From contig NZ_LR746496.1 of NCBI RefSeq assembly GCF_902729405.1, positions 2,976,001 through 3,040,000 of the forward strand: a DNA stretch of 64,000 nt, written 5' to 3'. The notes under the pieces are model-generated. The model ran no database searches. It was not told the DNA's origin and saw only the letters and a list, made by a program, of their open reading frames with translations. Every line of letters starts with the position of its first letter. The stretch's first letter is position 1. A program made the translations under genes and the position numbers. The DNA is from Acididesulfobacillus acetoxydans. GTDB lineage: Bacteria > Bacillota > Desulfitobacteriia > Desulfitobacteriales > Desulfitobacteriaceae. Shown here piece after piece: positions 33,204 to 42,621 of the stretch.

Positions 33204-33742
33204 TTCAGCCTTTCCGCCGCCAGCAAGAGAGCCAGAACCGTTTTCGCGTCCCGGAAACCGCCGCCGCGAGCCCTGGTCACAGCCTCCGCCCAGTCAAGGG
33301 CTTCCACCGCCAAGAACTCATCCTCATCCGGAACGAGGGGGTCCCAAACCAAGTCCCGGGCCAGGTAAAGGTGCATAATTTCGTCCGAGAATCCGGGAGT
33401 TGTGCAGAACGTGCCGAGGGGAACCATAGTTCCCCTGTAACCCGTTTCCTCCCTCAGTTCCCGCTCGGCGCAACTCAAAAGCCCCTCCCCCGGATCCAAC
33501 TTTCCGGCCGGGATCTCCAAGGTCACGTCCCCGATGGGATAGCGGAACTGCCTGACAAGCAAAACCCTCTCCTCCAACCGGGCCACAATCCCCACGGCTC
33601 CCGGATGCCTGACCACTTCCCGGGTCGTTTTCCCCCCCTGGGGCAGGCGGACCGTATCCCGTTCCAAACGCAGCATGCGTCCTTGAAAGACAACTTCCCG
33701 GCTGATTCTCTCTTCACGTAAATCGGTGTCGCTCTTTTTCAT
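33200..33742 (-). CDS. nudF: ADP-ribose pyrophosphatase (Nudix)
   Basis: Hydrolyses ADP-ribose to AMP and ribose 5-phosphate. The Nudix box is intact: GKLDPGEGLLSCAERELREE followed by TGY. VGIVARLEERVLLVRQFRYP and VTLEIPAGK fit the ADPR-specific subgroup, and TTPGFSDEIMHLYLA is the conserved C-terminal loop. 180 residues. It overlaps the oxidoreductase gamma gene (TCATGA) and the EndoQ-like gene, so it is translationally coupled at both ends although functionally unrelated to the upstream operon. Confidence 0.93.
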   Translation of the reverse strand: MKKSDTDLREERISREVVFQGRMLRLERDTVRLPQGGKTTREVVRHPGAVGIVARLEERVLLVRQFRYPIGDVTLEIPAGKLDPGEGLLSCAERELREETGYRGTMVPLGTFCTTPGFSDEIMHLYLARDLVWDPLVPDEDEFLAVEALDWAEAVTRARGGGFRDAKTVLALLLAAERLK

Positions 33743-34281
33743 GATTGAGCCAACTCAACTCCCAATTCTAAAGCCTGCCGATTCAGCGGAATTAACTTGT
33801 GCCGATGCTCGGGCAGCACTTTCTTCAGGGCCCCCACCACGGAGTCGAGACTCACGGCCCCCGTGATTGCCACGAAAGCGCCGACCAGAATCATATTGGC
33901 CACGCGGGAATTGCCGAACTTCTCCTGGGCCAGATTGTCCACCGGGAGTTTCAGGACCCGCAGGTCCGTCCTTTGCGGTTCGACCTTCACGAGAGAGGAA
34001 TTAAGCAAGAGCAGCCCGCCAGGTTTGACGTTCCCTTCGAATTTTTCCAAAGAAGGCCGGTTGAGAACAAAAAGGGTATCGGGTTCGTCAATCAAAGGGG
34101 AACTCACCGGGGTATCCGACAAGGTCACGGAACAGTTGGCCGTTCCTCCCCGCATCTCCGGACCATAAGAAGGAATCCAGCTTACCTGCTTGTTCTCCTC
34201 CATCCCGGCATAAGCCAGAAGCTGCCCCATGGACATGACTCCTTGGCCGCCAAAACCGGCCAAAATAATTTCCTGCAACAT
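33739..34281 (-). CDS. 2-oxoacid:ferredoxin oxidoreductase, gamma subunit
   Basis: Gamma subunit of a four-subunit VOR/KOR-type oxidoreductase. ILAGFGGQGVMSMGQLLAYA at the N-terminus and SYGPEMRGGTANCSVTLSD are diagnostic. 180 residues. It overlaps the beta gene (TGATG). In context with bcd and buk it most likely serves branched-chain 2-oxoacids (VOR, from valine, leucine and isoleucine), making acyl-CoA, CO2 and reduced ferredoxin; 2-oxoglutarate remains possible. Confidence 0.92.
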   Translation of the reverse strand: MLQEIILAGFGGQGVMSMGQLLAYAGMEENKQVSWIPSYGPEMRGGTANCSVTLSDTPVSSPLIDEPDTLFVLNRPSLEKFEGNVKPGGLLLLNSSLVKVEPQRTDLRVLKLPVDNLAQEKFGNSRVANMILVGAFVAITGAVSLDSVVGALKKVLPEHRHKLIPLNRQALELGVELAQS

Positions 34282-35030
34282 CAGGCCTTCACCTCCTCAG
34301 GTGCTTTCTGTACACCCAGGGGATAATAGGGAATCATGTTATCCTTGAGCCACTCCAAAGCCTTGAGCGGAGTCAGGCCCCAGTTCGTCGGACAGCTGGA
34401 GAGGACCTCGACCATGGCAAACCCTTTGCGTTCCAGCTGAACCTGAAAAGCAGTCTTAACGGCCTTTTTCGCTTTCGCCACTTCCTGCGGATTATGCACC
34501 GAAACGCGGGCGATGTAGGCCGCCCCCGGCATCGTAGCCAGAATCTCGGACATCCGGATGGGGTAACCCTGCACCTCCGGATCGCGTCCGTTTGGGGCCG
34601 TTGTCGCTGTCTGCCCAATCAGAGTCGTGGGGGCCATCTGTCCCCCGGTCATGCCGTAAATCGCATTATTGACGAAGATGGTGGTAATCTTCTCCCCCCG
34701 GGCCGCGGCGTGAATGATCTCGGCCGTTCCGATAGCTGCCAGATCTCCGTCTCCCTGATAGGTAAACACCACTTTATCGGGATGAACCCGCTTGATCCCC
34801 GTGGCCACCGCCGGAGCGCGCCCATGGGCCGCTTCGTACATATCCACATTAAAATAGTTATAAGCGAGCACTGAGCAACCTACGGGAGCGATGCCGATGG
34901 TCTCTTCCCTCACACCGAGTTCGTCGATAACTTCCGCCACCAAGCGGTGAATAATTCCGTGCGTACACCCGGGGCAATAATGCGTCTTGGCTGGGGTCAG
35001 GGACTTTGGCCTTTCAAACACCGTAATCAT
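34281..35030 (-). CDS. 2-oxoacid:ferredoxin oxidoreductase, beta (TPP-binding) subunit
   Basis: Carries thiamine diphosphate: [15 protein letters not shown] near the N-terminus, [18 protein letters not shown], the TPP motif [20 protein letters not shown] (GDG to N) and [20 protein letters not shown]. 249 residues, typical. AAGGAGG lies before the ATG. It is coupled to the alpha and gamma genes by short overlaps, ensuring matched subunit synthesis. Confidence 0.94.
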
Positions 35031-36097
35031 GCCGATCGTCCTCCTTCCTGCACCAACTCTGTGATCTTAGAGACGACTGCCCGAGTCGTGGGAACCATCC
35101 CCCCGGCACGTCCATAGAAGTGAACGGGTACTTTAAATTCGAGGTTGTAGCGCACATCTTCAACCAATTGACCCATGCTCATTTCCACCGTCAGGACCGA
35201 CTTCGCCTGCCTGCAAGCCGCCTGGATCTCCGCTTTCGGAAAGGGGAAAAGAGTGATGGGCCTGAACAAACCGGCTTTAATCCCCTGCTGCCGAGCCTGA
35301 TCCACTGCCGCTTTGCACACGCGGGCCGAGGAGCCGTACCCGACCAGGACAATTTCGGCGTCATCCGTGTAATAGCTCTCCGAGCGTGTCTCCTCCTCCG
35401 CCATCTGGGCGTACTTGGCTTGGAGTTTTAGATTGTGTTCTTCCAGTTCCAGCGGATTGAGGTAGAGAGAATTGATGATATTGGGCTCGCGTCCTTTGGC
35501 TCCCCGGGCCGCCCAGGGTTTGGACGGCAGTTTGTCCGGATCGATCATCTCGGGGAACTCCACCGGCTCCATCATTTGCCCCAGAGTTCCGTCTCCGAGA
35601 ATCATTACGGGGTTGCGGTATTTATCCGCCAGGGCGAAAGCCAGACCCATTAAGTCCACCATCTCCTGGATACTGGCGGGAGCGAGGACCAGAAGCCGGT
35701 AATCGCCGTGCCCTCCGCCTTTTACCGCTTGAAAGTAGTCGGATTGCCCCGGCTGAATACTGCCCAAGCCCGGGCCGCCCCGTTGCATGTTGACGATAAC
35801 ACAGGGTAATTCGGCACCCGCGATATAGGAAATACCCTCCATCTTCAGGCTGACGCCCGGGGAAGAGGAAGAGGTCATAACGCGCGCACCCGCGCCGGCC
35901 GCCCCGTAAACCATATTGATTGCCGCCACTTCCGACTCCGCCTGCAGAAAGACTCCCCCGATTTCGGGCAGGCGCTTGGCCAAATAATGCGGAAGTTCGC
36001 TCTGCGGAGTAATCGGATAGCCGAAGAAAAAGCGGCAGCCGGCCCGGATCGCCGCCTCACCGAGTGCCTCATTCCCTTTCATCAGGACCTTAGCCAT
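35027..36097 (-). CDS. 2-oxoacid:ferredoxin oxidoreductase, alpha subunit (VorB-like)
   Basis: The alpha subunit forms the substrate/CoA domains. [20 protein letters not shown] and [20 protein letters not shown] are the Pyr-domain start, then [40 protein letters not shown] and a C-terminal [20 protein letters not shown] segment. 356 residues, the length I associate with VorB/KorA. The ATG follows GGGAGGAG. Substrate assignment as branched-chain oxoacid rests on the neighbouring leucine dehydrogenase and butyrate kinase. Confidence 0.92.
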
Positions 36098-36311
36098 GGT
36101 TTTTCTCCTCCCTTCGCACTGTAATCACCACATCGGGACACATCCGGGCACAAAACGCGCAGGATATACAGCTGTCCTGATCGATGACCGTCGCCGGATA
36201 GAACCCCATGGAGTTCAGGTGATCGGCCATAACGATGATCCCTTTCGGACACGCGGCCTTGCACAGTTCGCACCCTTTGCAGCGTTCTTCATCAAACTCT
36301 ACCTTCAGCAT
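36090..36311 (-). CDS. 2-oxoacid:ferredoxin oxidoreductase, delta (2[4Fe-4S] ferredoxin) subunit
   Basis: A 73-residue two-cluster ferredoxin: CKGCELCKAACPKG and CISCAFCARMCPDV give two complete CxxCxxCxxxCP motifs. It accepts electrons from the TPP subunit and passes them to soluble ferredoxin. First gene of the delta-alpha-beta-gamma order, with a GGAAGGAGGG ribosome site and an 8-bp overlap into alpha. Confidence 0.94.
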   Translation of the reverse strand: MLKVEFDEERCKGCELCKAACPKGIIVMADHLNSMGFYPATVIDQDSCISCAFCARMCPDVVITVRREEKNHG

Positions 36312-36330: not shown

Positions 36331-37065
36331 TCAATGAAAGGGCGGCCCGATTCTGTTTACCTGTCCTTCCTCCGACTCCCAAGGGGGAAGGAGGTAATTC
36401 CTGACCCGTTGCCTGGGACCCGCCGGCCTTTCCCCCTGACTCCAACCCGCGCGTTCGGCCAGCTCTCGCTCCAAGCGCTCGGCCCAGCGTTCCGTCACCC
36501 CCGTCATCAGCACCGGCAAGTCTAAACCCCGTGCCATAGCGTTGACCTGAGCATACCCCGCCAGCAAATCCTCCCATTCCGTCTTCTCACCTAAGTTCGG
36601 ATTGCTGACAATACCGTCAATCCGCAACTGGGAAGCATGCTCGATCTCCAGCCGCAGGGCTTGCAGGCCGGCCGCGTCCCCGGCAAAAGGCCGGTACGGA
36701 TTGATCACCAAAAACATACGATAACCGCGCTTGTGCAAAATCGGGGCAAAAGCGGCCAAAGCCAAAGCACCGGCCGCGTCTCCGCCCACATCGATCAGGA
36801 CTTCCCCCTCCGCGCTGGTCAAAGCGCCCAGTACTCGAGGACTGACCACCGGCAGGTCGGCGTCTTCCCAGTCTCCGTTCGGCATAATCAAATCCACCCC
36901 GGCTTCCGCCAGGAAGGCGCGGGCTTCCCGCGAACGAAAATACGGTTTGACAATGTCCAGGTCGACCACATGTACTCGCTGCCCAGCCGCGGTCAGACTC
37001 ACGGCCCGATTAAGCGCAATCTCCGTTTTGCCGCTGCCGAAATACCCGGTGAAAATCTCAATCAA
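36331..37065 (-). CDS. P-loop ATPase of the MinD/CobB-like type in the oxoacid oxidoreductase operon
   Basis: A 244-residue SIMIBI-class NTPase. Walker A is FTGYFGSGKTEIALNRAV, followed by VHVVDLDIVKPYFRSREARA (deviant switch Asp), EVLIDVGGDAAGALALAAFA (Walker B/switch II) and LVINPYRPFAG. The TTG start follows GAGGCGGGAAG and overlaps the butyrate-kinase-like gene by 8 bp. I know such ATPases next to vor genes in Clostridia but no function for them; a role in cofactor handling or enzyme maturation is only a guess. The C-terminus is Pro/Arg-rich and poorly structured. Confidence 0.82.
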   Translation of the reverse strand: MIEIFTGYFGSGKTEIALNRAVSLTAAGQRVHVVDLDIVKPYFRSREARAFLAEAGVDLIMPNGDWEDADLPVVSPRVLGALTSAEGEVLIDVGGDAAGALALAAFAPILHKRGYRMFLVINPYRPFAGDAAGLQALRLEIEHASQLRIDGIVSNPNLGEKTEWEDLLAGYAQVNAMARGLDLPVLMTGVTERWAERLERELAERAGWSQGERPAGPRQRVRNYLLPPWESEEGQVNRIGPPFH

Positions 37066-37984
37066 GCTTCCCGCCTCTTTCCGCCGCCAAGCGCATGTCG
37101 GTCAACCAAATACGCGCGAGCCCCAAAGCGCGGTCTGCGCCGGGAATCTCCCGAACCGCCGGGTCAGGCGGCAGCCGTTTCTTGATGCGAGCCATTCCCG
37201 AGAGGGAAGCCATTTCCCCCGTGAGAACGATCTTGTCCACCCTCTGCTTAAGCACCGCCCGCATCGCGCCGATCTCTTTAACCACCTGATAAGCCATGAT
37301 CTCTTCCCATTCTTCCGGAGACATCATCCCTTTATAGGCAGCCCAGCCGCCTTCCTCATCCAGGGCCGACTCCAATTGTGCCCGGGTCTTGCCGCCCGTA
37401 AAAGCCCAATGAACGAAGGGTTCCGTCGGCAGGGAACCGCAGAATTTCCAGCCCATGGGCCCCTCGCCATCGCGCGCATTGTTGACATCCAAAAGCCGTC
37501 CGCCGGCATAGGCCGCCACGGACACCCCTTCTCCGAGGCTGGCCACGATGATCCCGGCGGGAAGGTTTTGCCCCGACTCCCGCTCCAGCCGGCAGAGCGC
37601 TGCCTCGTGCGCGATCCGGTCATATATTCCCTTGCGCTTGATGCCGGGAAAACCGGAAACCTGGGCCGACTCCGGCAGGTCCTCTTCCCACCACAGCGGG
37701 ATGGCACAGAGACAAGCGCCAAAAGCCCGCGCCAGCTTGTCAACCCGGCACGAACCGGAAGCGGGACCCCGGAAATCCAGACCCGAAACGAGGACAACCC
37801 GCAAGGCGCTCACGCCCAAACCGCCCAGCCAGCCCTCGCAGGCCGCCCGCAGCGCGTCCGGATCTGTGTTCTGACCCCCTGCCGCGGGGCCGTACGGAGG
37901 GAAACACCGGGACTCAAGGCGTTCTTCGCCCCGCCAAAGCGTCAATTCAATCCCCTTGACTTGTTCCACCCATGTCAGAAACAC
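37058..37984 (-). CDS. Butyrate-kinase paralogue lacking catalytic residues
   Basis: This 308-residue protein aligns along its second half with the butyrate kinase encoded 1.5 kb away: GRLLDVNNARDGEGP versus GRIVDVSNANHGGP, CGSLPTEPFVHWAF versus SGSLPARELLHLCF, and MAYQVVKEIGAMRAVL versus MAYQIAKEIGAMAAVL. Key residues are lost. The N-terminal phosphate-binding NPGSTSTK is absent, HLGGG is SLGEG (catalytic His to Ser), the Arg in ERSGSLP is Phe (KFCGSLP), and YTGG is LTGE. It is probably not a kinase. The GTG start follows GGAG by 9 nt. It overlaps the ATPase gene, suggesting the two act together. Confidence 0.75.
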   Translation of the reverse strand: MFLTWVEQVKGIELTLWRGEERLESRCFPPYGPAAGGQNTDPDALRAACEGWLGGLGVSALRVVLVSGLDFRGPASGSCRVDKLARAFGACLCAIPLWWEEDLPESAQVSGFPGIKRKGIYDRIAHEAALCRLERESGQNLPAGIIVASLGEGVSVAAYAGGRLLDVNNARDGEGPMGWKFCGSLPTEPFVHWAFTGGKTRAQLESALDEEGGWAAYKGMMSPEEWEEIMAYQVVKEIGAMRAVLKQRVDKIVLTGEMASLSGMARIKKRLPPDPAVREIPGADRALGLARIWLTDMRLAAERGGKLD

Positions 37985-38130
37985 AGCCCAGCACTCCGTC
38001 CTTTAAGATTATACACCGGATGACCCCGTAAATCGAATCTCAATTCGAGCGGGCCTTCATATCCTCCCGCCGGTCCTCCGGACGAGTCCCCGGGGCCTCC
38101 AAGGAGAAGGTTCGGTTTCCCGCCTCAGCC

Positions 38131-39198
38131 TTAGCGCAGGAAAGTATTGCTCACCTTGCCGATTTTGGCGATTCTTTCTTCCGCCATGCGATCGGCTGCC
38201 TTATAGGTCGGGATATGGTCCCGTTTGGCGATGGCAATCACCCTGGCCACATTGTCGTAGACCGTCTCGACTTTCTTCAAAGCGCGCTCGGCGTTATACC
38301 CTTCGAGTTCGTCCGCAACGTTAATAACACCCCCGGCATTGATCACATAATCCGGAGCGTAAAGGATTCCCTTTTCATAGAGTTCATCTCCATGGCGATC
38401 CTCTTTGAGGACATTGTTGGCAGCTCCCGCCACCACCTGGCATTTAAGCTGGGGAATGGTGTCGTCATTAATCACTGCTCCCAAAGCGCAGGGAGCGAAA
38501 ATATCGCACTTAACCCCGAAAATCTCCTCCGGACGCACCGCCGTCGCCACAAATTCGCGGGCTACGCGTTTCACGGCCTCGCTGTTGATATCCGTAACGA
38601 TCAGCTTCGCCCCTTCGTCCGTGAGGTGTTTGGCCAGGTAATAGCCCACATGCCCCAGACCCTGGATAGCTACGGTCTTTCCTTCTAAGGAGTCTGAGCC
38701 GAAAGCCTCCTTGGCGGCGGCTTTCATACCGCGATAGACGCCCAAAGCCGTGAGAGGGGAAGGATCTCCGGATGCTCCGTAAGATGAGGAAATACCGGTG
38801 ACAAACTTGGTTTCCGTGTGAATCCAGTCCATATCCTGAACGTTGGTTCCCACATCTTCCGCGGTGATGTAGCGCCCGTTGAGAGACTGAACGTAACGTC
38901 CAAAGGCCCTGAACAGTTCCTCGGACTTCTGGGTGCGAGAATCACCCATGATGACGGCTTTCCCTCCACCCAGGTTAAGGCCCGCGGCAGCATTCTTGTA
39001 GGTCATCCCTCTGGCCAGCCGCAGGGCGTCGAGAATGGCATCTTCCTCACTGGCATAATTCCACATGCGTGTTCCGCCCAAGGCAGGTCCCAAAGTCGTA
39101 TCATGAATACAGATGACGGCTTTCAGGCCGGATGTGTTATCCTGGCAGAGAACAAGTTGTTCATAGTCGTACTTTTCCATATACTCGAAAGTTGTCAT
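38131..39198 (-). CDS. bcd: Branched-chain amino acid (leucine/valine) dehydrogenase
   Basis: NAD-dependent oxidative deamination of leucine, valine and isoleucine to 2-oxoacids, the step before the oxoacid oxidoreductase. Substrate-binding lobe: [20 protein letters not shown] and [16 protein letters not shown] (catalytic Lys region), with [15 protein letters not shown]. Rossmann lobe: [44 protein letters not shown] and [16 protein letters not shown]. 355 residues, typical of leucine dehydrogenase. It lies between buk and the kinase paralogue, as bcd precedes the dehydrogenase genes in the Bacillus bkd operon. Confidence 0.95.
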
Positions 39199-39240: not shown

Positions 39241-39435
39241 TTCCGCAGACCTCGCTTCGGTAAACGCGGGTTTACTTCGGCAACTCGGCTTGCCCCAGCA
39301 GACGCAGTTTTGCTTCAGTAACGCATGGGTTTACTTTGGTGAACGCCGGTTGGTTCCGATAAACGCGGGCTTATTTGGGCATACACCGGCATCCCACGGG
39401 TTTGTTCCGGTGAAGACGGGTTTGCTTCAGTAGAC
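39241..39435. repeat. Degenerate ~20-bp tandem array between bcd and buk
   Basis: Eight or nine diverged units of 18-21 bp (one longer), such as CTTCGGTAAACGCGGGTTTA, CTTTGGTGAACGCCGGTTGG and TTCCGATAAACGCGGGCTTA, fill the gap between bcd and buk and run into the last codons of buk. No gene or terminator is visible in it. Confidence 0.75.
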
Positions 39436-40482
39436 GCGTGCCTCTTCTTTTCCGCTCAAGACCCGGTAAGCTCCCTCCGCCAAAGCAGCCAGTTCGTCTT
39501 CACCCGGCAGCCGGAAAGCAGGGGCTAAAGAACCGACGTACTCCTGTATCAAGCCCAACAAAAGCTCCGAATGCGCCAGACCCCCTGTGTAAATAAGGCC
39601 GTCAATTTGCGGGAGAACCGCAGCCATGGCGCCGATTTCTTTAGCAATTTGGTAGGCCATAGCCCGAAAAATCCGTCCGGCCTCCTCATCCCCCTGCTCA
39701 ATGCGTTTTTCTATCTCTTGACCGGCATTGGTCCCCAAGTAGCCGAGCAGTCCGGACTTGCCATTGATCTGCCTTCTCAACTCCATTTCCCCATACCGGC
39801 CGGAAAAACAAAGATGCAGAAGTTCTCGCGCCGGCAGGCTACCGGAGCGTTCGGGAGAAAAAGGCCCTCCATGATTGGCATTGCTCACATCGACGATTCG
39901 CCCCTCTTTGACAGCGACGACGCTGATTCCCCCTCCCAGATGAACTGCGACAAAGTGACAAGTTTGCAACGGCCTGCCCAGTTCGGCGGCACAGCGGAGA
40001 ATCGCCCGGCGGATGTTCAAAGCGTGCAGGAAACTGACGCGGGGAAGCTCGGGCCGGCCGGAGAAACGCGCCCAATCTTCCAATTCGTCTACCGACGGAG
40101 GGTCGACGACAAAAGCCGAGATCCCGGCCCTGTCCGCCAGAGCCTTGGCCAGCACCGCACCGAGATTGGAAGCGTGTTCGCCGTTTTTGGCCGTCAGCAG
40201 ATGCTCGAGCATTTTGGCGTTGACCGCGTAGGTCCCGCTGGGAACCGGATCGAGAAGTCCGCCCCGCGCTGCCACCGCAGACAGTTTGTCCGGGCTCAGT
40301 CCCTGTCGGGAGAGAAAACCCTCCACCGCCCGGCGGCGCATCTCCTTTTGGTCCATGACATTCCGAAACCGGCGCATTTCCTCGGGCGCGTGCTGCAAAG
40401 TGTCGACTGCCAGCAGCTCGCTGTTCCGGCTGAGACCGACTTTGGTCGAGGTTGAACCCGGGTTGATCACCAATAGATACAT
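39427..40482 (-). CDS. buk: Butyrate / branched-chain fatty acid kinase
   Basis: Phosphorylates butyrate, isobutyrate or isovalerate, or in catabolism makes ATP from the acyl phosphate. The acetokinase-family pattern is intact: LVINPGSTSTKVGLSRN, VAVHLGGGISVVAVKEGRIV, SNANHGGPFSPERSGSLPAR and DGLIYTGGLAHSELL. The ATG at 40482 (351 aa) follows AAGGGG by 5 nt; the frame stays open upstream to 40566 but that stretch contains the sigma-54 promoter. First gene of the operon. No phosphotransbutyrylase (ptb) gene is present in the window, so acyl-CoA to acyl phosphate must be made elsewhere. Confidence 0.95.
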   Translation of the reverse strand: MYLLVINPGSTSTKVGLSRNSELLAVDTLQHAPEEMRRFRNVMDQKEMRRRAVEGFLSRQGLSPDKLSAVAARGGLLDPVPSGTYAVNAKMLEHLLTAKNGEHASNLGAVLAKALADRAGISAFVVDPPSVDELEDWARFSGRPELPRVSFLHALNIRRAILRCAAELGRPLQTCHFVAVHLGGGISVVAVKEGRIVDVSNANHGGPFSPERSGSLPARELLHLCFSGRYGEMELRRQINGKSGLLGYLGTNAGQEIEKRIEQGDEEAGRIFRAMAYQIAKEIGAMAAVLPQIDGLIYTGGLAHSELLLGLIQEYVGSLAPAFRLPGEDELAALAEGAYRVLSGKEEARVY

Positions 40483-40549: not shown

Positions 40550-40565
40550 TGCAAGATAGATGCCA
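40550..40565 (-). promoter_or_regulatory. Sigma-54 promoter of the buk-bcd-vor operon
   Basis: The minus strand reads TGGCATCTATCTTGCA, a full -24/-12 sigma-54 promoter (TGGCAY-N5-TTGCA) with exact spacing. A transcript would start near 40538, about 55 nt before buk. A sigma-54 activator gene is adjacent and paired dyads lie about 110 bp upstream. Confidence 0.85.
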
Positions 40566-40663
40566 AAACTCGGGGCAGAGGTAAAACTTTCGAATTGTCT
40601 GATTTAATGCCCTCTCCCGCCTCCTATCCCGTCCTGTCGATAAACGTAGGGGCCCGGTTGGTC

Positions 40664-40814: not shown

Positions 40815-42551
40815 TTAAACAAGTCCGTGGCGCCGCAGTTTGTAATAAAAATTCCGGATTGAGATCTTCAGGTCGCGGGCCGCCTGGGTTTTATTCCCCC
40901 CCGCTTCTTTTAAAGCCCGGCGGAGGACCTCCTCTTCCCAGCAAAACTGCAGTTTTGCGTAGCTTCTCTCTTCCGGCTCTCCGTCCTCAACGGGGTTTGA
41001 CACGCCTTTTCCAGCCCGGCCCCCTCCGCCCTGCCGCGCGTCCAGCGGGGGTAAGTGACCGGCCTCCATGACCGTGTCGCCGACGCGCATGTTGATAATA
41101 GCCCTTCCTAAGACATTTTCCAATTCCCTCACATTTCCCGGCCACCGGTACCTGCTTAAAATCTCAAGGGCCTCATCCGTAACCTTTTCAACACCCCGGC
41201 CGTACTCCTGATTGAACCTGCGGATCAAATGGTGCACCAGGAGGGGAATATCCGGACGCCGCTGACGCAGCGGGGGGATCAATACCGGAATGACATTTAA
41301 GCGGTAATAAAGATCTTCCCGGAACTTGCCCAGACGCAGTGCCTCTTCCAGGTCGGCGTTCGTAGCGGCAATGACCCGTACATCCACGCTGACAGGCTGA
41401 TTGGCTCCCACCCGCACGATTTCCCGTTCCTGCAGAACCCTGAGAAGCTTGGTTTGCAGGTTCAGGCTGATTTCCCCGATTTCGTCCAGGAAAATCGTCC
41501 CCCCGTTGGCCTCTTCAAAAAGTCCGACCTTTCCCCCTCTTTTGGCTCCGGTAAACGCCCCTTCCACATAGCCGAAAAGTTCGCTTTCCAGTAAACTGTC
41601 CGAAAGAGCCGCACAGTTCACCCGGATGAACTGGCCTTTGGGCCGTGAGCTCAAACGGTGAATGGCGTGGGCGAAAAGTTCCTTACCTGTCCCGCTCTCA
41701 CCCCGCAGCAAGACGGTCGCGGGGGTAGCGGCGGCGCGCTGAGCCTGTTCAACCGTCGCCCGGATCGCTTCGCTCTCCCCGATAATATCCGTAAAAGTAT
41801 ATTTTGCCTCCAAATGCCGGATGATCCGTTTGGCACCTTCGAGTTCATCGGATAGTTTACGAATCTCGGAGACATCCTGCAGCACGCCCACTGAACCCAA
41901 AAGTCTCCCCTGAGCCAGAATGGGCGCCACATTGACGATCACTTCTTTGTGTTTGGGACCCACTTTCATACTGATCCCTTTGACCGCTTTGCCGGTGCGC
42001 AGGACTTTCATGTGCATGCTCTCCCCCCCCTCGGCCATATCGACCGTGGGAGGCTTGCCCAGGACATCCTCCGCGGTCAAGCCCGTTAAACGCGTGTAGG
42101 CCGGGTTAACCAGGATCCCCACACCTTTTTCGTCAGCGACCGAGATGGCGTCTTGCGTGGAATTAATGATAGCCGTGAGGAGATTGCCCGCTTCCCGCAG
42201 GTTATTGACCTGGGCGCTCAGACTCTCGAATTCGTCCATATTCCGAATAAAAGCGACCACACCGCCCACCCGCCCGGATAAGCTCCGGTAAGGAACACTG
42301 CTGACCGCGACTTGCTTGCCGCCGATTCGGGTCAGCCGGTTAAAACTCGCCGTCTGCCATTGCCGCGCCTCAGAAAGGAATAGGTCAGGCAAAACCTGAC
42401 CGTAATCCAGGCCCAGGGCTTCATCCTTTTCTATTCGCAATAATTTTGCCGCAGCCCGGTTGAAAACCGCAATTTTGCCGCGCCCGTCGATCGCGATGAC
42501 GGCGTTGTCTCCTTCACGTGCCAGACGCTCGACCTGAAGACGCGTAAGCAC
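40815..42551 (-). CDS. Sigma-54-dependent activator, BkdR-like
   Basis: A bacterial enhancer-binding protein (578 aa) expected to switch on the buk-bcd-vor operon. It has a PAS domain (~8-110), a second PAS domain (~125-235) and an AAA+ domain (~255-490) with [20 protein letters not shown] (Walker A), the sigma-54-contact loop [24 protein letters not shown] (Walker B) and [20 protein letters not shown]. The C-terminal Fis-type helix-turn-helix is [20 protein letters not shown]. The GTG at 42551 follows GAGGGGGG; the frame upstream reads through the spo0A terminator. In B. subtilis bkdR also lies beside its operon, downstream of spo0A. Confidence 0.92.
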
Positions 42552-42572
42552 TTCCAATCCCCCCTCAGACTG

Positions 42573-42599
42573 AAAAAAGAAAAGCCGAATCCGGCTTTT
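42573..42599 (-). terminator. Rho-independent terminator of spo0A
   Basis: On the minus strand AAAAGCCG-GATT-CGGCTTTT is followed by CTTTTTT, a strong intrinsic terminator just after spo0A. It separates spo0A from the activator gene. Confidence 0.88.
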
Positions 42600-42621
42600 T
42601 CCTGGCGACAATACCTCTTCA

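Follow-up and report, generated by a model that had tools for sequence, protein, structure and literature searches.

What is a relative of butyrate kinase (BUK) for, once it has lost the residues that make a kinase? The question is raised by one gene in the window analysed here, a stretch of 64,000 nucleotides from the genome of the acidophilic, sulfate-reducing bacterium Acididesulfobacillus acetoxydans (4.52 Mb, one contig). This gene encodes a 308-residue protein, hereafter BUKL, and shares its operon with an intact buk, a P-loop ATPase gene and the vor genes. A preliminary description saw in BUKL and the ATPase a possible accessory module for oxoacid oxidoreductases. The genes around BUKL, its residues, its constraint and its distribution all bear on this proposal, and partly lead elsewhere.

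A bkd-type locus with two butyrate kinase homologues

The bkd operon of Bacillus subtilis, near spo0A, reads bkdR-ptb-bcd-buk-lpdV-bkdAA-bkdAB-bkdB. In the window the order is argR-recN-spoIVB-spo0A-sigma54 regulator-buk-leuDH-BUKL-ATPase-Fd-vorB-vorA-vorC-Nudix, and we take its sigma-54 regulator, bcd and buk, downstream of argR-recN-spoIVB-spo0A, to be the counterparts of the B. subtilis genes. The BUKL operon is indeed a bkd-type locus, in which VOR replaces the Bkd dehydrogenase. It differs from the B. subtilis operon in having VOR, a ferredoxin and a P-loop ATPase in place of that dehydrogenase, in lacking ptb, and in placing the intact buk before bcd and BUKL after it. The genome has two ptb copies at other places. 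One of them belongs to a second operon, of the type leuDH-buk-ptb-ATPase-vorBAC (L064:6641-13448, that is C1:672640-679447), whose buk is likewise intact.

The 8-bp overlap of the BUKL and ATPase frames (37058-37065) and the position of the pair upstream of vor are as first described, and the ferredoxin subunit between the ATPase and vorB, which the preliminary description did not include, can now be added (Table 1). The SD-like sequence of the ATPase gene, AAAGAGG, sits within the 3' end of BUKL. The buk frame likely starts at the ATG at 40482 rather than at the TTG at 40566. The sigma-54-like site upstream of it, TGGCATCTATCTTGC, has the same letters in Peptococcaceae bacterium CEB3, which has been placed in Acididesulfobacillus (PMC8982180); six sites with one mismatch are found in the window against 4.6 expected, a number that taken alone is not beyond chance. 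No terminator-like site was found on the operon strand of the intergenic region between leuDH and BUKL. The part of this region just before BUKL (37985-38040, minus strand) carries a TATAAT and an SD-like sequence and is better conserved in CEB3 than the rest; from its sequence, it is a possible internal promoter. Against the model for tryptophan dehydrogenase ScyB, which has a cut-off of 600 bits, the product of the leuDH-type gene reaches only 410.8 bits.

Table 1. Features of the BUKL operon, with positions in the window.
Feature	Position	Strand	Remarks
Sigma-54-dependent regulator, bkdR position	40815..42611	-	no equivalog cut-off passed
Sigma-54 -24/-12-like site TGGCATCTATCTTGC, upstream of buk	40551..40565	-	one mismatch
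Intact butyrate kinase (buk)	39427..40482	-	TIGR02707 429.8 bits, above cut-off; every catalytic position present
Leu/Glu/Phe/Val-type dehydrogenase, bcd/leucine dehydrogenase position	38131..39198	-	PF02812 and PF00208
leuDH-BUKL intergenic region	37985..38130	-	last ~30 bp (TATAATCTTAAAGGACGGAG...) almost invariant in CEB3
BUKL, pseudo-butyrate-kinase	37058..37984	-	open frame, GTG start, 308 aa
P-loop ATPase, CbiA/MinD-like	36331..37065	-	TTG start, 244 aa
4Fe-4S ferredoxin-type subunit (delta) of 2-oxoacid:ferredoxin oxidoreductase	36097..36311	-	70 aa
vorB (alpha subunit)	35027..36097	-	NF005507 574.9 bits, above cut-off
vorA (beta, TPP-binding subunit)	34281..35030	-	
vorC (gamma subunit)	33739..34281	-	TIGR02175 89.7 bits, above cut-off

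Lost catalytic residues and retained core

The relationship first proposed between BUKL and the buk product of its own operon is borne out, with 34% over 174 aa (E 1e-20). BUKL also matches the solved Thermotoga Buk2 (1x9j, 1saz; E 7e-23) and the NCBIfam butyrate kinase model NF002834 (E 2.7e-33). Judged from these comparisons, homology to butyrate kinase is far beyond chance. BUKL shares with the family its C-terminal part, the YQxxKEIG helix, the DVNNA-GEGP block and the position in a bkd-type operon. It departs from the family by being about 45 residues shorter, by lacking the catalytic and nucleotide-binding residues, and by scoring below the family cut-offs (115.6 bits for NF002834, cut-off 222; 102.7 bits for TIGR02707, curated cut-off 289).

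All the losses claimed for BUKL hold in an alignment with 46 BUKs, in which no missing residue is restored at a shifted position, and further losses are added. In the numbering of the operon's own BUK, the PHOSPHATE1 motif NPGSTSTK has become VEQVKGIE (N7 to V, S10 to V, S12 to G, K14 to E). Arg73 is replaced by Ser, Asp127 by Pro, His153 by Asp, His181 by Ser, Arg212 by Phe, Gly301 by Glu and Glu328/330 by Ala/Arg, and His103 is deleted. Each of the 14 catalytic and nucleotide-loop positions checked is changed, in BUKL as in its CEB3 ortholog. Sequencing error or frameshift was ruled out as the source of these losses, since two independent genomes agree. All these residues are present in the operon's intact BUK, and in the second BUK of the genome as well, except for a Ser at the Gly184 position.

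It is hardly credible that BUKL should still be a kinase working through substitute residues, as its overall fold, probably kept according to a low-confidence model, might allow. The carboxylate of the substrate is bound in acetate kinases by Arg91 and Arg241, both of them essential residues, and losing the Glu384 equivalent abolishes activity (PMC6461089); the equivalents of Arg91, His180, Arg241 and Glu384 are S, D, F and A/R in BUKL. Nucleotide use depends on PHOSPHATE1 residues and on Gly331 of the ADENOSINE loop, where the Gly331Gln change by itself makes acetate kinase over 100 times less active (PMC4390882). In BUKL, one Glu has been gained in each of the PHOSPHATE2 and ADENOSINE loops; the one at the Gly331 position and the one in the PHOSPHATE2 loop would be expected to repel the phosphates of ATP.

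What remains lies mainly in the C-terminal domain. Of the 96 columns conserved among BUKs, 36 are kept in BUKL, and every one of these in CEB3 too; they comprise 31 of the 59 C-terminal columns and 5 of the 37 N-terminal ones. The N-terminal domain is reduced and the C-terminal acetokinase core retained, in agreement with the initial view of BUKL as a degenerate sugar-kinase-fold protein, which can be specified as a degenerate protein of probable acetokinase (ASKHA) fold. The structure models are weak, with alignment rows from the window and the CEB3 locus (L005) only; in the one with a pLDDT of 54, built from four such rows, the top Foldseek matches are Buk2 structures over the full length, at a TM of about 0.3. 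The solved acetokinases, Buk2 included, form dimers whose interface is lined by the helix equivalent to YQxxKEIG and holds a conserved pocket, and a citrate-bound asymmetric dimer appears inhibited (PMC3475010). In both BUKL and its CEB3 ortholog, the six residues checked in this helix, mapped by alignment, are all kept.

Such a core, kept while the nucleotide loops are gone, would suit a protein that works independently of BUK as a ligand sensor or scaffold and that would bind, for example, an acyl phosphate or a branched-chain acid. The arginines that hold the acyl group (Arg73 and Arg212 of BUK) have gone too, and with them the usual carboxylate site, which makes this reading rather unlikely.

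Constraint, origin and proposed role of BUKL

BUKL was found only in Acididesulfobacillus, in both genomes compared. The CEB3 ortholog (L005:6001-6924) is 91% identical to it, with no indels. No ortholog was found beyond the genus in 82 genomes of the class, nor in 398 genomes of the phylum, where the other matches listed are frames of BUK length. A search of genome contigs, a method that reaches close relatives only, gave no further BUKL. Between the window and CEB3, BUKL has a dN/dS of 0.197, and replacement differences are depleted relative to silent ones (p 1.4e-10). In this comparison of two closely related species, BUKL is under purifying selection, and the constraint is real but moderate. 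Its dN/dS is the highest of ten genes compared, followed by Nudix (0.189), the sigma-54 regulator (0.147), the ATPase (0.134) and BUK (0.100), the remaining genes being below 0.06.

These figures are relevant to the idea that BUKL is a relic of a second kinase gene, buk2, with some weak function left, and that it persists chiefly through the coupling of its translation to that of the ATPase and vor. Its rank among the ten genes, its very long branch, its overlap with the ATPase start and its lack in related genera all fit. On the other hand, selection is clearly seen at the amino-acid level, the frame has neither stops nor indels, and the ATPase carries an SD-like sequence of its own. Coupling alone would not lead both species to keep an identical set of 36 BUK-conserved residues. 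A mere relic is considered unlikely, although it deserves some weight. The sequences are best read as those of a pseudoenzyme, a dead descendant of a butyrate kinase that would neither bind nucleotide in the normal way nor transfer phosphate and that is under maintenance as a protein.

Descent from buk2 is itself suggested by gene order. Ten loci (L116-L124, L129) carry two BUK genes as well as the ATPase, in the order buk1-ptb-(leuDH)-buk2-ATPase-(Fd)-vorBAC; there buk2 lies immediately upstream of the ATPase, so that BUKL sits in the slot held by an intact buk2 in other Bacillota. The tree cannot confirm this origin, because the BUKL branch, at about 4 changes per site, is saturated and its placement uninformative; nor does it reject the neighbouring BUK, duplicated locally, as the source (AU p 0.56). 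BUKL is real, constrained and unusual; it is also genus-restricted, and can be accounted for as a variation on a known operon and on a known kind of evolutionary event.

A tentative role, to which we would give a little less than an even chance on the basis of sequence, is that of a partner of the intact BUK without catalysis of its own. An action on BUK is suggested by the dimer helix that BUKL has retained, by the operon that the two share and, as a general precedent, by the reduced ASKHA partners of other systems. BUKL would pair through its C-terminal domain with the operon's intact BUK, or with itself, and would tune the activity or stability of BUK as a non-catalytic subunit, possibly with a ligand bound in the conserved interface pocket. 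In the open-licence literature, no protein of the acetate/butyrate kinase family was found described as catalytically dead, nor anything relevant on a butyrate kinase pseudoenzyme or a MinD-like VOR helper. BUKL would be a clean case of a dead acetokinase maintained by selection beside an intact paralogue in one operon, and would make the role of acetokinase pseudoenzymes experimentally testable.

The P-loop ATPase and its linkage to vor

The ATPase has only weak Pfam matches, none at gathering level. Its Walker A motif (GxxGSGKTE) and CbiA-like core resemble, by weak profile matches, those of Mrp/NUBPL, MinD and ArsA-type ATPases; it differs from them by the absence of the deviant KGG lysine and by a family signature of its own (DLDIVNPYFRSR, DVGGDxxGA, VNxxRP). 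The window protein has LAA after DVGGD, versus LGR in the family, where the Gly at 104 is almost invariant. Fe-S carrier and MinD-type ATPases are among these distant matches, a mere hint that the ATPase may handle metal or Fe-S clusters.

For the ATPase, the linkage to vor is a statistical one. It lies immediately upstream of Fd/vor at 27 of 28 loci in relatives and 22 of 28 loci in the phylum, and coordinate lists place it next to vor in at least 62 of 102 places. Among 299 genomes of the phylum, 151 have both the ATPase and VorB, 34 the ATPase only, 30 VorB only and 84 neither, which amounts to an odds ratio of 12 in a statistic that ignores kinship. This part of the initial accessory-module claim stands. 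A dedicated vor pair of BUKL and ATPase is not supported, BUKL having been found in one genus only. The two genes do not consistently co-occur or always flank vor: everywhere outside the genus, the ATPase adjoins vor without BUKL, and in four genomes from the same family or order (G014, G006, G037, G007) a syntenic vor operon is kept that contains no BUK/BUKL gene and no ATPase gene. In three of them (G014, G007, G037), no ATPase match was found genome-wide at E 1e-10.

The same vor operon occurs in related genera lacking BUKL, in some of them without the ATPase too, and BUKL is therefore not a general VOR accessory. No special BUKL-ATPase pair is needed, as an intact buk2 occupies the BUKL slot elsewhere. 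That same slot lies before the same ATPase, so the adjacency of BUKL to it is probably inherited, the ATPase being probably a separate and older component that often adjoins vor. An accessory module of BUKL and ATPase that would activate VOR or insert its cofactor, which the frequent adjacency to Fd-vor and the kinds of ATPase relatives would favour, is improbable in view of these distributions and of the occurrence of the ATPase fused to FolC or beside it. The ATPase is a better candidate than BUKL for an oxoacid-oxidoreductase helper, and the more general question; no function for a vor-linked P-loop ATPase was found in the open-licence literature.

An analogy can also be drawn with a system in which YeaZ/TsaB, a reduced ASKHA protein, is the partner of YgjD/TsaD, together with the ATPase YjeE/TsaE (PMC3157347). 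BUKL, the intact BUK and the ATPase could by this analogy form a three-part switch like TsaB-TsaD-TsaE: the degenerate ASKHA paralogue would dock on the active ASKHA enzyme and the ATPase would reset the complex. The likeness of a reduced ASKHA protein, an active one and a small P-loop ATPase is a works-like lead only; YeaZ acts in tRNA modification, and such a switch seems very improbable. If it did exist, it would couple the substrate-level formation of ATP in the metabolism of branched-chain acids to VOR flux.

Two further arrangements of the ATPase gene can be mentioned. In several Bacillota (L081:6940-8943, L083:6173-8197 and others), the ATPase is fused to the C-terminal end of a FolC-like (Mur ligase) protein or directly follows FolC. 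In G006, the ATPase is separated from the ferredoxin-vor genes by a 427-aa ORF (L072:5033-6316) that looks, by eye, like a transposase.
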